From Okeania sp. KiyG1 (lineage in GTDB: Bacteria > Cyanobacteriota > Cyanobacteriia > Cyanobacteriales > Microcoleaceae), in the NCBI RefSeq assembly GCF_014132355.1, contig NZ_BLZO01000091.1, positions 1 to 64,000 on the forward strand: DNA of 64,000 bases. Direction: 5' to 3'. A program made the position numbers and the translations under genes. The notes below the pieces were generated by a model. The model did no database searches. It was not told where the DNA came from and saw only the letters and a list, made by a program, of their open reading frames with translations. Of this stretch, positions 19,435 through 28,949 are shown one piece after another; positions within the stretch are counted from its first letter, which is position 1; each line of letters starts with the position of its first letter.

Positions 19435-20990
19435 GTTGAATCAAATATATCGAGCGTTCGATATGAATATCCCACAATTCAAATTAGTCACAGCAAAAAT
19501 TTAACTTCTAACTTCTGACTTCTGAGTTTTGACTTCTGACTTCAAGGCGAGCGATCGCTAAATTTAAACCTTCCTCAAAAATAGGTCAACCAATATTTTC
19601 TTACCCTACTTGTGTTGAATCAAATATATTGAGCGTTCGATATAAATATCCCACCATCTAAATATTAGTCACAGCAAAAATTTAACTTCTAACTTCTGAC
19701 TTTTGAGTTGTGACTTCTGACTTCAAGGCGAGCGATCGCTAAATTTAAACCTTCCTCAAAAATAGGTCAACCAATATTTCCTTACCTCACCTCTGTTGAA
19801 TCAAATATATCGAACGCTCGATATAAACTACCCACCATCCAAATTAGTCACAGCAAAAATTTAACTTCTAACTTCTGACTTTTGAGTTGTGACTTCTGAC
19901 TTCAAGGCGAGCGATCGCTAAATTTAAACCTTCCTCAAAAATAGGTCAACCAATATTTCCTTACCTCACCTCTGTTGAATCAAATATATCGAGGGTTCGA
20001 TATAAATATCCCACAATTAAAATTAGTCACAGCAAAAATTTAACTTCTAACTTTTGACTTTTGAGTTGTGACTTCTGACTTCAAGGCGAGCGATCGCTAA
20101 ATTTAAACCTTCCTCAAAAATAGGTCAACCAATATTTTCTTACCTCACCTCTGTTGAATCAAATATATTGAGCGTTCGATATAAATATCCCACCATCTAA
20201 ATATTAGTCACAGCAAAAATTTAACTTCTAACTTCTGACTTTTGACTTGTGACTTCTGACTTCAAGGCGAGCGATCGCTAAATTTAAACCTTCCTCAAAA
20301 ATAGGTCAACCAATATTTCCTTACCTCACCTCTGTTGAATCAAATATATCGAGGGTTCGATATAAATATCCCACAATTAAAATTAGTCACAGCAAAAATT
20401 TAACTTCTAACTTTTGACTTTTGAGTTGTGACTTCTGACTTCAAGGCGAGCGATCGCTAAATTTAAACCTTCCTCAAAAATAGGTCAACCAATATTTCCT
20501 TACCTCACCTCTGTTGAATCAAATATATTGAGGGTTCGATATAAATATCCCACAATTCAAATTAGTCACAGCAAAAATTTAACTTCTAACTTCTGACTTC
20601 TGACTTTTGACTTCTGACTTCAAGGCAGGCGATCGCTAAATTTAAACCTTCCTCAAAAATAGGTCAACCAATATTTCCTTACCTCACCTCTGTTGAATAA
20701 AATATATCGAACGCTCGATATAAACTACCCACCATCCAAATTAGTCACAGCAAAAATTTAACTTCTAACTTTTGACTTTTGAGTTGTGACTTCTGACTTC
20801 AAGGCGAGCGATCGCTAAATTTAAACCTTCCTCAAAAATAGGTCAACCAATATTTCCTTACCTCACTTGTGTTGAATCAAATATATCGAGGGTTCGATAT
20901 AAATATCCCACAATTAAAATTAGTCACAGCAAAAATTTAACTTCTAACTTCTGACTTTTGACTTCTCACTTCTGACTTCAATATCGCTCT
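19435..20990. repeat. ~179-bp tandem satellite, nine units
   Basis: Units begin (gttgaat) at 19435, 19614, 19795, 19974, 20153, 20334, 20513, 20692 and 20871; spacing is 179 or 181 bp. Each has a palindrome ATATCGAGCGTTCGATAT or a variant, then ttagtcacagcaaaaattta, a six-fold array of the heptamer CTTCTGA, a HIP1 site (GCGATCGC), and aaataggtcaaccaatattt. Variant classes recur (units 2 and 5; 3 and 8; 4, 6 and 9), a higher-order pattern. No ORF spans it. Confidence 0.9.
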
Positions 20991-20999
20991 CTATACAAA

Positions 21000-21206
21000 T
21001 TAGATTTTCTGTAAATTCTGTAGCTGTGGCAGGGGTTTCCCCATTTGCTCATAAGCATAGACTAAATCTGCCAAAACTTCCTTCGCATTTTCCAGTGCTT
21101 CCTCATAAGATTCACCGTGAGTTTGAGCATACTTTCCCCATTCAGGCAAACTAGCAATATAGGTTTTATTCTCTTCAGACCATTGAATTAAAATACTATA
21201 TTTCAT
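21000..21206 (-). CDS. HicB-type antitoxin
   Basis: 68 residues with the HicB fold signature: MKYSILIQWSEENKTYIASLPEWG, then THGESYEEALENAKEVLADLV. HicB antitoxins bind and mask the HicA mRNA interferase. No separate C-terminal DNA-binding domain, so it is the short form. Directly upstream on the same strand is a truncated hicA (21272-21345), separated by a TTAGAAT heptamer array, so the antitoxin survives without a working toxin here. Confidence 0.82.
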   Translation of the reverse strand: MKYSILIQWSEENKTYIASLPEWGKYAQTHGESYEEALENAKEVLADLVYAYEQMGKPLPQLQNLQKI

Positions 21207-21271
21207 TAGACATCTCCAGAGATGAATTTAGAATTTAGAATTTAGAATTCAGAATTTAGGAGAAATTTTCT

Positions 21272-21345
21272 TCATAAGAGTGAAAATCCTGCTTTTTGCA
21301 AGATTTGTTTTAATTCTCTAACCTTTTTGGGTATTTTTCCAGATA
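21272..21345 (-). pseudogene. hicA: hicA toxin stub
   Basis: The minus strand encodes GKIPKKVRELKQILQKAGF then SLL and a stop. This matches the first helix of HicA (PKKIRELKQ.L.KAGF) and lacks the remaining roughly 40 residues with the catalytic His region. The stub ends close to a TTAGAAT array at 21222-21262. Too short for routine ORF calling. Confidence 0.6.
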
Positions 21346-21379
21346 AAAATATTTCTAGAGTTCAATGTTAATATAATAG

Positions 21380-21478
21380 GACTTACGCAGATACGCTATA
21401 TATAGTACTTGTAACTATTTTCCAATAGTTACTGGACTCTATACATAGTGTCTTTGCGTAAGTCCTGTATAAATAACA
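21380..21478. repeat. MITE with TIR GGACTTACGCA
   Basis: ataggacttacgcagatac and, inverted, gtctttgcgtaagtcctgta bound about 95 bp with an inner pair ctatatatag/ctatacatag. A second, longer member is at 34927-35062. Confidence 0.6.
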
Positions 21479-21521
21479 TTAAATTATCAATCAAAATATC
21501 AAGAATATTAGGAGGTAAAAA

Positions 21522-21779
21522 TTGAATTGGGAAATAGACGAAGCACAACAAAATTTATCAGACCTGAAATAACCAACCCAAAAACCACAAATGATTTATG
21601 AACAAGAAAAACTTGTAGCAGCTATTATCAATGCGCAAACATTTCAGGAGTTTTTAGCATGGCAAAAACAACATCAAAAACCTTCCTTAGCAGATACCTT
21701 CGGGGAATTACGCAGTTTGTGTACTCAAGCAGATTATGTACTAGAAATTCCCACTCGCCAAAATAGACCAAACCCTTAA
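21522..21779 (+). pseudogene. Phd/YefM antitoxin with early stop
   Basis: With the TTG start at 21522, six bases past GGAGG, the frame reads LNWEIDEAQQNLSDLK, stops at TAA 21570-21572, then continues in the same frame as PTQKPQMIYEQEKLVAAIIN through FQEFLAWQKQHQKPSLADTF to the stop at 21779. The joined 85 residues match Phd/YefM antitoxins. The ATG at 21591 could still give a 62-residue fragment without the DNA-binding N-terminus. Imperfect direct repeats (attatcaatcaaaatatcaa) lie at about 21483 and 21780, exactly bracketing the gene. No partner toxin follows. Confidence 0.7.
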
Positions 21780-21807
21780 ATTATCAATCAAAATATCAAC
21801 AATATAT

Positions 21808-22083
21808 ATGTCAATTACAATTAACCTAACTCCAGAATTAGAAGCACGACTCCGGGAAAAAGCAACTCAACAGGGACAAGATATTTCCCTAGTTGTCAGT
21901 GAATTACTTGCCAGAGTTTTAGACTGGGAAACTGCCGATACCGAAGAAGCTATTAAAGGTATTCAGCAAGGATTAGATGATTTTGAAAATGGTAGATTTC
22001 GTTCTTTTGATGAATTTGCTGAAGTACAACGTCAGATTCAGTTATCAGTTATCAGTTATCAGTTATCAGTTATCAGCTTTTGA
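21808..22083 (+). CDS. Ribbon-helix-helix antitoxin-like protein
   Basis: 91 residues. The N-terminal SITINLTPELEARLREKATQ is a ribbon-helix-helix start, and the acidic C-terminal half (GIQQGLDDFENGRFRSFDEF) resembles ParD-like antitoxins. The last ~14 residues, QLSVISYQLSVISF, are translated from a TTATCAG heptamer array, so the original C-terminus has been replaced. A toxin would be expected immediately downstream; instead the convergent UPF0175 gene begins in the same array. Confidence 0.65.
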   Translation: MSITINLTPELEARLREKATQQGQDISLVVSELLARVLDWETADTEEAIKGIQQGLDDFENGRFRSFDEFAEVQRQIQLSVISYQLSVISF

Positions 22084-22085
22084 TA
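22034..22085. repeat. TTATCAG heptamer array at a convergent gene junction
   Basis: About five copies of TTATCAG. Both the RHH gene (+) and the UPF0175 gene (-) end inside or at the border of this array. Further TTATCAG arrays: 19393, 22314, 22686, 23238, 24530 and 28897. Confidence 0.75.
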
Positions 22086-22302
22086 GTTGAGTAATTACCT
22101 CTTCTCGTAATTCTTCAGGAGAATAATTAAAAATAGGGATTTTATATTGTCCTAAAACTTCTATAAAAGCTGACTTAGAATATCCTGCTAATCTTGCTGC
22201 TTTTCCTAAAGAAATTTTATTAATTTCATACAATTTTATTGCTAAGAATAACTTAGCCTCATTTTCCGAAATTCCCATAGGAAGTTCACAAACTAAATTC
22301 AT
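22066..22302 (-). CDS. UPF0175-family antitoxin-like protein
   Basis: 78 residues: ELPMGISENEAKLFLAIKLYE, KISLGKAARLAGYSKSAFIE and IPIFNYSPEEL are the UPF0175 signature, a small HTH-like family usually preceding a PIN-type DUF3368 toxin. The terminal KADN comes from the adjoining TTATCAG array. The place where a downstream toxin would sit is taken up by that array and the RHH gene, so the toxin is missing. Confidence 0.8.
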   Translation of the reverse strand: MNLVCELPMGISENEAKLFLAIKLYEINKISLGKAARLAGYSKSAFIEVLGQYKIPIFNYSPEELREEVITQLSKADN

Positions 22303-22336
22303 AATTGCTCCTTTTCAGTTATCAGTTATCATCATC

Positions 22337-22531
22337 TTAGGGATTATCCCAAATTGTCTCAAAAGCTGTTTCAGATAGTTTAGTAGTAGAGTAAACCAAA
22401 CTTTGCTGTTGCTCTAGCTGAGACAAAAAATCCACAAAATCTATTATTTCGGCAACTTTATCTTGAGGCAAACTCCGAATTTTGGCAATAAGTATTTTTT
22501 CCGACTCAGTGTAAATGTTTGTGTGTACCAT
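22337..22531 (-). CDS. DUF2281/VapB-like antitoxin
   Basis: 64 residues: IRSLPQDKVAEIIDFVDFLSQL is the helix typical of DUF2281 and VapB-like small proteins that pair with PIN or RelE toxins. The N-terminus MVHTNIYTESEKILI is short, with no AbrB fold visible. A TTATCAG array (22314-22335) abuts the 3' end, exactly where a partner toxin would be expected. Family call is moderate. Confidence 0.6.
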   Translation of the reverse strand: MVHTNIYTESEKILIAKIRSLPQDKVAEIIDFVDFLSQLEQQQSLVYSTTKLSETAFETIWDNP

Positions 22532-22718
22532 TAATTCATATCTCTTCTTGTTAACAGCGTAATATTACAAGAGGCAATTAATTTTTATAGCAAATATTCA
22601 AGGGAGAATTTATTATATTCAAAAAATCAGGTCTCATGCCTACTCTTTTAACGGGACGAAAATAATAAACTCCAGATTTGAAACACTGATAACTGATAAC
22701 TGATAACTGATAACTGAA

Positions 22719-22970
22719 ATGACTATATCACCCGAACGACTTAAAGAATTGCAAAATATAAAAGACTCTGAGATTGACACTTCAGACATTCCTGAACTTG
22801 ACGAACAATTTTGGCAAAAAGCTAGAAGAGTTGAACCAATACCTCAAGAAACGGTTTTGATTAAATTAGATCCAGATATTACCAACTGGTTTAAACATCA
22901 AGGTCCAAACTATAAAACTATTATCAATCAAGTTTTGCGTGATTATATTAATCAACAAAAACCAGAATGA
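22719..22970 (+). CDS. brnA: BrnA-type antitoxin
   Basis: 83 residues: DSEIDTSDIPELDEQFWQKA then LIKLDPDITNWFKHQGPNYK and INQVLRDYI, the BrnA ribbon-helix-helix pattern. BrnA represses and neutralises BrnT, normally encoded just upstream. Here the start codon is preceded only by a TTATCAG/CTGATAA array (22686-22715), and I find no brnT piece in 22532-22685. Confidence 0.8.
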   Translation: MTISPERLKELQNIKDSEIDTSDIPELDEQFWQKARRVEPIPQETVLIKLDPDITNWFKHQGPNYKTIINQVLRDYINQQKPE

Positions 22971-23276
22971 ACTTTAACGAAGTCATATTAAGCAATAAAC
23001 CAAACCAAGGATTAAAATCCTTGGCTAATAGCTTAAGTCATCTTTTAGATGACTAAATTATCTATATCGTCTTTTTTTGTCAGCAGGGGAAGTTATGAAG
23101 CGATAATTGAGCTACTGGACATAGAGTATATATGAGCGCACCTTTCCCACTATACAGATAGTACCACAAATAAATTTTAAATCAACCCTTTGCTGAATTT
23201 TTTTTTCTGGCAAATATTCATTGGAGCGATCGCCTTTTTCAGTTATCAGTAGGAATATTGGTTATTAACAAATATA
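22971..23276. repeat. Intergenic with left direct repeat of the HNH cassette
   Basis: 23118-23205 (tatatatgagcgcacctttc and following) matches 24178-24262 at roughly 80%. A short stem (ccaaggattaaaatccttgg) is at about 23005-23025. Confidence 0.6.
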
Positions 23277-23723
23277 TTAGGCTTGTATTGGATCGCCTGG
23301 AGGTGGATATCTACCAACTTCCACATCTGCTGCACGAATGTTAATAATTCGAGTTCTATTAAGATTTAGGGTTGTTATTGTAGCGCGACCTATTGCTGTT
23401 AAAGCAATTATTAAAGTTTTATCTGTAGACCAAATAAAATGTTCTTGCCAGAGATTATTTCGAGGATTAAACAAAGGTACTTCTTTGCCAGACTGTTCAT
23501 CAATAGCACTAATTTTATTAGACTTTTTTCGATTACAGTGAAAACAAGCTAAGGCTAAATTATCAATTGAGTTGCTACCTGCTTTATTGATAGGAATTAT
23601 ATGATCTACAGTAAATTTTACATAGTGCCATTTTTCTGATGCGTGGCAATATTCGCACAGATAATTTGCTCTTTGATGTACTTGTTCTATAGTTATTTCG
23701 GAAAGATAACGATTAGCAGACAC
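23277..23723 (-). CDS. HNH endonuclease
   Basis: 148 residues. Zinc and catalytic pieces are in order: ANYLCEYCHASEKW, FTVDHIIPINKAGSN (Asp-His of the HNH core) and NLALACFHCNRKKSN. The long C-terminal tail after residue 85 is typical of small cyanobacterial HNH proteins. It follows a small gene on the same strand with a 23-bp gap, a pairing I recall from other cyanobacteria. Could be a homing-type or defence nuclease; target unknown. Confidence 0.88.
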   Translation of the reverse strand: MSANRYLSEITIEQVHQRANYLCEYCHASEKWHYVKFTVDHIIPINKAGSNSIDNLALACFHCNRKKSNKISAIDEQSGKEVPLFNPRNNLWQEHFIWSTDKTLIIALTAIGRATITTLNLNRTRIINIRAADVEVGRYPPPGDPIQA

Positions 23724-24028: not shown

Positions 24029-24567
24029 CCCCGCCTTTTAAGGCGCAATATTTTTGGAGAGAAGCTCAAATCCCCTATTTCCCCTCCACAGTCGGGGGAG
24101 GGGCGAGGGGTGGGTTAACTTCTGACTTCGTTAACGAGCATGATATTTGTAGCGCTTCCTTAACTGAGGCCATATAATATAGAGTATATATGAGCGCACC
24201 TTTTCCACTATATAAATAATAGCACAAATTTATTTAAAATCAACCCCTTACTCAAAATTTTTTCGTCTATTTCAAAGGTACAGCGAATAGCAAATTTTGG
24301 CATATCAGTCAGGTATATTCAGGTATAATATTCGCGGGCAAGATGCCCGCACTGAAGATTATGAAATAAGGTGTAAAGCCTTCTAATATTATGTCCGGTT
24401 GAACAGTTATAAATAAACGACGAAGGAGTCAGGAGTCAGGAGACAGGAGTCAGGAGGGTAGAAAGAAGAAGAAAGAGAAAGTTTTTTTATCACTAATTAT
24501 CAGGACATGATATAATTTTAGTCGGAGGTACTGATAACTGATAACTGATAACTGATAACTGAATTTC
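24029..24567. repeat. Intergenic: cassette right repeat and heptamers
   Basis: Right direct repeat of the HNH cassette at 24178-24262; palindromic cccctccacagtcgggggag near 24075; the module cgcgggcaagatgcccgc at about 24330 (also at 53760); AGGAGTC array at 24425-24455; cttatgtccgg-type motif; TTATCAG-type array at 24530-24562. No gene. Confidence 0.55.
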
Positions 24568-28690: not shown

Positions 28691-28949
28691 AATGACATAT
28701 TAAAGTTTCTTTCCTAATGACCAAGAAATAAGGTCCATAGCCTCCCCTTTCAAGGGAATGAAAAAGCGGTCGTTTGCGGAGCAGTCCGTTAGGATGGGAT
28801 GGCGATCTTCGGAGCGGCTCTGCCAAGAGCTAGTCCCCTCGTCATATCCAATCGACCAAGAGAAAATAAAGTTCAGTATTTCAAGCCTCTGACTTCAGGT
28901 ACTGATAACTGATAACTGAAATGACAATAAGGCATCACAGAACCACCAT
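28691..28949. repeat. Intergenic: interspersed element
   Basis: 28735-28865 carries atagcctcccctttcaaggg, aaaagcggtc and atatccaatcgaccaagaga, the family seen at 7655, 30058 and 49420, with a nested G-rich palindrome. A short TTATCAG-type array follows at 28897-28918. Confidence 0.5.

Follow-up and report, generated by a model that had tools for sequence, protein, structure and literature searches.

Why a bacterial genome should keep a row of type II antitoxin genes with no toxin beside any of them is the question raised by positions 21000-22970 of the DNA examined here, a 64,000-nucleotide stretch of the marine cyanobacterium Okeania sp. KiyG1 (the window; G000:C91:1-64000, from a draft assembly of 198 contigs totalling 10.98 Mb). 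As a first-pass annotation made from the letters alone had stated, this segment holds six antitoxin-type genes, namely hicB, phd, an RHH gene, a UPF0175 gene, a DUF2281/VapB-like gene and brnA, and no intact toxin. A survey of open reading frames (ORFs) of at least 40 amino acids in 21000-22970 detected no toxin, so that the adjacent intact partner that makes a type II toxin-antitoxin (TA) module is missing throughout, and the idea that the gaps contain toxins going by other names was rejected. Comparison with related genomes and with a paralogue in the same genome supports toxin loss with antitoxin retention for all six genes. It further points, tentatively and at close to an even chance, to a TA hotspot whose six toxins were lost in several separate events and whose kept antitoxins may still function, most likely in anti-addiction.

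Toxins present in relatives and absent from the cluster

A DNA search against 99 related genomes gave some match in 85, many of the listed matches being arrays only; the comparisons used Okeania-lineage genomes (G001, G002, G004 and others), with G004 and G002 colinear with the window, and an own-genome paralogue of the cluster on G000:C198. Six partner toxins found in relatives or in the paralogue each pass their Pfam cut-off, and the antitoxins of the relatives' intact cognate modules are about 79-96% identical to those of the window. G005:C39 has an intact hicA immediately upstream of a hicB that shares 88% identity with that of the window (HicA, PF07927, 32.1 bits against a cut-off of 27), and an intact PIN gene follows full-length phd in the paralogue (L031 4576-4989) and in G017:C223. 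ParE follows RHH in G002, G012 and G001:C320. In G002 the protein whose gene immediately precedes parE shares 92% identity with the window RHH, and an intact DUF3368 also follows UPF0175. A PemK/MazF-like toxin follows DUF2281 in G001:C679, and brnTA is intact in G022 and G017, with BrnT preceding and overlapping brnA; among Okeania metagenome-assembled genomes the brnA locus is present in SIO2C9, SIO3I5 and SIO2F4. Since intact partners stand at homologous places in relatives or in the paralogue, the toxins were lost, as the first-pass annotation had proposed, and the idea that these antitoxins were never paired was rejected on the same evidence.

The paralogue (G000:C198:61260-63563; L031 4261-6557) combines phd with its intact PIN partner, the same RHH-array-UPF0175 scar as the window, and a brnA shortened to 24 amino acids behind a CTGATAA-type array. 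Among 24 distinct HicB-like loci with at least 60% identity, a set that includes some incomplete ones and some close to the end of a contig, nine have a near full-length HicA match and 15 a fragment or none.

Family assignment differs in firmness among the six. UPF0175 (22066-22302, minus strand) passes PF03683 (E=1.4e-19, 70 bits against 27.9) and BrnA (22719-22970, plus strand, an open gene of 83 amino acids without BrnT) passes PF14384 (E=1.3e-11, 45.1 bits against 26.1). The remaining four fail the Pfam cut-offs and were identified via relatives with intact partners: the hicB-like gene (21000-21206, minus strand, 68 amino acids, open, without HicA) reaches 18.9 bits of 27 in PF15919 (E=0.0018), and RHH (21808-22083, plus strand, ParD/RelB-like) 14.2 of 27.3 bits for ParD and 21.2 of 50 for the RelB-like family. 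DUF2281 (22337-22531, minus strand, with a premature stop and its MazF-like partner gone) reaches 22.8 of 26.5 bits in PF10047, in which the copy beside the PemK/MazF-like toxin of G001:C679 scores 31.4. The phd remnant has no Pfam family match, and its intact paralogue scores 20.4 bits against 29.8 in PF02604.

Junctions, shared scars and the heptamer arrays

The arrays named in the first-pass annotation, at brnA, between RHH and UPF0175, at DUF2281 and between hicB and a hicA stub, were confirmed by the coordinates of Tandem Repeats Finder, and for hicA, for parE with DUF3368 and for brnT (brnA side) the match to the intact forms breaks off no more than about 20 bp from an array. The hicA stub (21266-21334, minus strand) retains codons 1-23, 83% identical to residues 1-23 and with one TGA stop, and is followed by a GAATTTA array (21224-21259) at the place of the hicA 3' part, as aligned with intact hicAB; G004 and G001 have the same scar, and G012 has a TTCCCTG-type array at the corresponding place. 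A lone hicA 3' piece at G000:C93:11986-12117 (L280; residues 26-69, 82%) corresponds roughly to the part missing from this stub. RHH homology ends at 22033, its C-terminal tail QLSVISYQLSVISF being encoded by a TTATCAG array (22038-22076) that links the 3' ends of RHH and UPF0175; UPF0175 homology begins at 22092, its last codons being altered by the junction. Array and short linker here replace 1.9 kb of G002 containing parE, another ORF and DUF3368, and the RHH-array-linker-UPF0175 scar is common to the window, G000:C198 and G001:C679. A second TTATCAG array of 2.4 copies (22315-22331) lies between the DUF2281 3' side and the UPF0175 5' side, a layout shared by the window, G002, G001:C113 and a G004 fragment; the junction letters are identical in the latter three, from which the window differs on the DUF2281 side, and all four are alike on the UPF0175 side. 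Premature stops interrupt DUF2281 in the window and in G001, and in G002 the gene lacks its start. Homology of brnA to its brnTA relatives begins at the ATG (22719), directly behind a CTGATAA (TAACTGA) array (22685-22717, plus strand) with brnT absent; this junction is common to G004 and also to the C198 fragment. Towards the other end of the brnT loss, 22547-22684 matched only G004 among the loci compared.

The sixth gene departs from this pattern. A broken phd 5' part (21522-21590, plus strand), whose in-frame TAA is common to the window, G002, G004 and G001:C113, precedes a C-terminal remnant with an open 62-amino-acid frame (21591-21779, plus strand); the PIN gene is absent at 21777/21778 without an array, a junction common to G001:C113. 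In G004 phd is joined to DUF2281 across a TTAATAA-type array, and PIN is present with stops in G002 (two) and G001:C679 (one).

Arrays of this kind abound: an exact triple TTATCAG occurs at 956 positions in the own genome, overlapping ones counted, and the window has 52 period-7 arrays of at least 17 bp. Four arrays in the cluster are not an unusual number (mean 1.65 per 1971-bp window, 10% reaching four), and an unusual density was discarded as not significant. What is unusual is their position. Four arrays serve the toxin sides of five of the six genes, phd being without one, which bears out the earlier statement that nearly every toxin side is an array, as compared with 15 of 112 sides of 56 own-genome ORFs (at least 120 amino acids, in own-genome pieces), a post hoc comparison as the cluster was chosen for its arrays. 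The six antitoxins have 34 close copies in the loci compared (at least 85% identity and 60% coverage, with 500 bp of toxin-side sequence required unless the toxin was intact and remaining rows dropped); a toxin-side array was found in 13 of 22 without an intact toxin and in two of 12 with one (Fisher p=0.03, the copies not being independent). Over 53 kb colinear with G004 and G002, three of four clean indel junctions inside the cluster carry an array of at least 21 bp, one of the three being the DUF2281 5' side in G002 and not a toxin scar, as against none of 16 elsewhere (one of 16 at a threshold of 17 bp); a clean junction at 22982, just beyond the cluster limits, has no array. Arrays as general deletion scars were rejected from the 16 outside junctions.

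How far the arrays took part in the toxin losses was weighed against two alternatives. Contigs misjoined at identical arrays would be conceivable in a draft of 198 contigs with hundreds of such arrays; misassembly is nevertheless very improbable indeed, since another assembly has exact counterparts of three of the four array junctions and a similar counterpart of the fourth, the hicA-stub-array junction being found in the window, G004 and G001 and the other three in the assemblies named above, with the window as a whole colinear with G004 and G002. A far more serious contender, only moderately less than evenly likely, is that arrays are later colonists of scars and spacers without any part in toxin loss. 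It is favoured by an array between RHH and an intact ParE in G022 and G017, by array units at the hicA and phd junctions that vary from genome to genome, and by the tendency of arrays of at least 21 bp to fall outside blocks aligned with relatives. With G004, to which 59% of the sequence aligns, 24 of 29 such arrays do so, and with G002, to which 52% aligns, 21 of 29. Against it stand arrays of the same unit and orientation located 9 bp beyond the intact DUF3368 in G002 and 115 bp beyond the intact MazF in G001:C679, the letters beside the latter matching the window linker, which fits a deletion ending at a pre-existing array. The first-pass proposal of slippage or recombination between arrays thus holds in part: junctions mostly coincide with arrays and pre-existing arrays lie beyond DUF3368 and MazF, whereas PIN was lost without an array, DUF3368 of G004 was broken by an insertion of about 180 bp plus a stop, and PIN carries point stops in two other copies. 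As none of 12 intact-toxin modules checked has arrays within 100 bp on both toxin sides (two of 12 within 600 bp), recombination from array to array is only partly supported. In our reading, the arrays are spacer DNA, prone to breakage or recombination, in which one end of a deletion often falls, and not a dedicated excision device.

In front of brnA an array may have taken on a further part. It reads (TAACTGA)n in forward orientation and ends 1 nt before the ATG. Among 53 distinct CTGATAA arrays, drawn from loci chosen around TA genes and not a genome sample, 14 run on as CTGAAATG, as compared with a baseline of 3.5% of all CTGAA being followed by ATG, and GAGGTA precedes 11. Such arrays are thus placed as if between a ribosome-binding-like site and a start codon, and that of brnA stands where a leader should be, a role that it may fill. 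A bolder scheme, in which TAACTGA-type arrays convert TA operons into stand-alone antitoxin genes, an array next to a toxin serving as deletion end and then, as at brnA, as replacement leader, so that the genome builds an antitoxin immunity bank against addiction modules, appears unlikely.

Other features adjoin these junctions. Recurring flanks accompany the window CTGATAA arrays at 22685-22717, 24530-24562 and 28901-28919, and in G000:C57 a 117-bp ACTGATA array (L194 1340-1456) lies on the toxin side, about 115 bp away, of another UPF0175 homologue that has no DUF3368 match. Between hicA stub and phd lies a dispersed palindromic element, AGGACTTACGCA...TGCGTAAGTCCT (21378-21466), with further copies in G000:C53 and three tandem copies in G001:C113. 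A 179-bp tandem repeat of 8.6 copies (19435-20981) comes to an end some 20 bp short of the hicB stop; each of its copies includes an imperfect run of ACTTCTG heptamers. An HNH endonuclease gene (23277-23723, PF01844 E=1e-15) shares with brnA a 1.2-kb stretch missing from the colinear place in G002, and a dispersed repeat at 23095-23250 and 24179-24264 recurs in many TA loci of relatives.

Are the remaining antitoxins kept?

Shared scars allow changes that arose after toxin loss to be counted. Five antitoxins (hicB, brnA, UPF0175, RHH and the phd remnant) have accumulated 33 amino-acid-changing and 48 silent changes, where a neutral model expects 55-63 amino-acid-changing ones (under all five mutation biases tried p is about 0.001, the floor of 1000 runs). 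At kappa 4 the p values per gene are 0.001 for brnA, 0.005 for UPF0175 and for the phd remnant, 0.028 for hicB and 0.059 for RHH; brnA has one amino-acid change against 6-7 expected and UPF0175 three against 7.5-8.6. Pairwise ratios of nonsynonymous to synonymous substitution rates (dN/dS) of scar-sharing copies are 0.03-0.35. The silent divergence (dS) of the antitoxins seems ordinary, since it resembles that of sahH (dS 0.14-0.16, dN/dS 0.08-0.09; 0.16 and 0.08 against G004).

Several observations weigh against continued function. RHH alone is borderline across the mutation biases (p 0.01-0.12). Between the window and G004, eight of 505 amino-acid-changing sites of hicB, brnA and phd differ (1.6%), which is not different from 11 of 481 (2.3%) in the non-coding stretches 21262-21590 and 22532-22684 (p=0.49), and since the non-coding DNA is equally conserved the low dN/dS is suggestive only. 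These two stretches differ by 2.0-2.4%, as compared with 7.2% overall for sequence outside ORFs of at least 80 amino acids. Silent sites, at 19 of 124.5 (15%), are far above the non-coding divergence. The low ratios rest on this high silent divergence, and recombination with paired copies, which may have mixed histories, could produce them. Dead toxins also show low dN/dS (PIN 0.29 and 0.58, DUF3368 0.20), perhaps because most of their divergence predates death, and were set aside as an uninformative neutral control; for phd, PIN may still have been intact when the compared copies split. DUF2281 might have served as a contrast, the window copy giving ratios of 0.98 and 2.76 against G002 and G001 (p=0.007 versus five other pairs, one chosen per gene). 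As a neutral control it was rejected: the G002-G001 pair, with identical scars, gives 0.51 (p about 0.05-0.1 versus the others), pairs with the window copy 0.66-2.76 and with a paired copy 0.36-1.04, and it is no clean control since the closest match of the window copy is another copy in G004, and since the window copy does not have the same junction letters. Finally, brnA is cut to 24 amino acids in the own-genome paralogue, and G001, where BrnA has no match, contains a lone BrnT with its last residues replaced (G001:C113:21232-21474; L032 3712-3975), the reverse of what toxin-first loss leaves behind.

Taken gene by gene, sequence comparison makes retention likely for brnA and UPF0175, possible for hicB and uncertain for RHH and phd, with decay plain to see in DUF2281 and phd. 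A close intact cognate was seen in the own genome only for PIN (C198); no ParE or MazF of the cluster types was found there at E <= 1e-15, own-genome BrnT proteins are only 39-41% identical, and HicA occurs only as pieces (C93, C198). A DUF3368 match lies beside six of 11 other own UPF0175 copies, a count made without a genome-wide DUF3368 search. With no such ParE or MazF match and only a distant BrnT, the keeping of RHH and brnA is not accounted for by close cognates in the same genome. Intact modules in sister genomes may circulate in the group, which would suit anti-addiction in the sense of PMC2654758 without proving it.

The anti-addiction reading would thus run as follows. The locus may be a TA hotspot close to sahH where, in several separate events, each of six type II modules lost its toxin; spacer arrays present genome-wide would have provided one end of some deletions and now fill most junctions, and before brnA an array would also replace the leader directly at the start codon. 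Once their toxins had gone, brnA, UPF0175 and hicB remained open and took on few amino-acid changes, and DUF2281 and phd were damaged; the kept antitoxins would still act, most likely by neutralising toxins of homologous modules circulating in related filaments. Plain relics are possible, if on the doubtful side: toxin-first loss would be forced because antitoxin-first loss is lethal, and the antitoxins would be leftovers awaiting decay, as the premature stop of DUF2281, the broken N-terminal part of phd, the truncated brnA on C198, the common absence of HicA beside HicB (near full-length in only nine of the 24 loci) and the amino-acid-changing divergence no lower than local non-coding divergence all suggest. 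The deficit of amino-acid changes after the shared scars, strongest in brnA and UPF0175, argues against mere leftovers, as does the lone BrnT of G001. The same deficit would suit co-option, by which DNA-binding antitoxins are kept as transcription regulators of other genes, a role for orphan antitoxins being discussed in PMC7192599; this is improbable, as the phd piece lacks its N-terminal part yet has low dN/dS and promoter-like matches are at chance level (11 versus 9.7). Anti-addiction protection is the leading guess for what kept antitoxins would do, with stand-alone regulation second. The choice between relics and bank posed by the first-pass annotation thus divides by gene, with decay in DUF2281 and phd and low dN/dS in hicB, brnA and UPF0175, less clearly in RHH and the phd C-terminal part, a constraint that the local non-coding yardstick does not confirm.

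Relation to known systems

Orphan antitoxins, anti-addiction and the heptamers are each known (PMC7192599, PMC12654330, PMC2654758, PMC4679880), while an open-licence literature search returned no report of this toxin-stripped, array-joined arrangement. Orphan, or solitary, type II antitoxins, surveyed in Klebsiella (PMC7192599) and in a marine survey (PMC12654330), are similarly antitoxins without a toxin, often in the context of an intact pair elsewhere and with several possible origins; the cluster differs in having six adjacent families with all toxins lost or broken, in having most junctions filled by repeat arrays, and in scars that more than one species has in common. The anti-addiction module is described for ccd of Erwinia chrysanthemi (PMC2654758), and here too an antitoxin in the chromosome could counteract the toxin that a homologous mobile module brings in, with intact modules of these types present in relatives; ccd is a whole system, whereas the present row of toxin-less antitoxins would only putatively neutralise. 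The arrays share their heptamer with the TAACTGA arrays of marine Beggiatoaceae and Cyanobacteria (PMC4679880), CTGATAA being a rotation and TTATCAG its complement, and reverse arrays read LSVISYQ in both. The brnA type, forward and 1 nt before a start codon, is the largest category in the Beggiatoaceae genome of that paper, whose main text contains no word beginning with toxin; here arrays sit at toxin-side junctions of TA genes, some of them with GAATTTA- and TTAATAA-type units.

The TA field has yet to settle whether antitoxins without toxins are junk or protection, and this cluster offers a natural test, with six families together, relatives that have intact cognates, and scars whose sharing between species dates the loss. 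The cluster also links heptamer repeats that are well known but unexplained to a concrete outcome, the uncoupling of operons.

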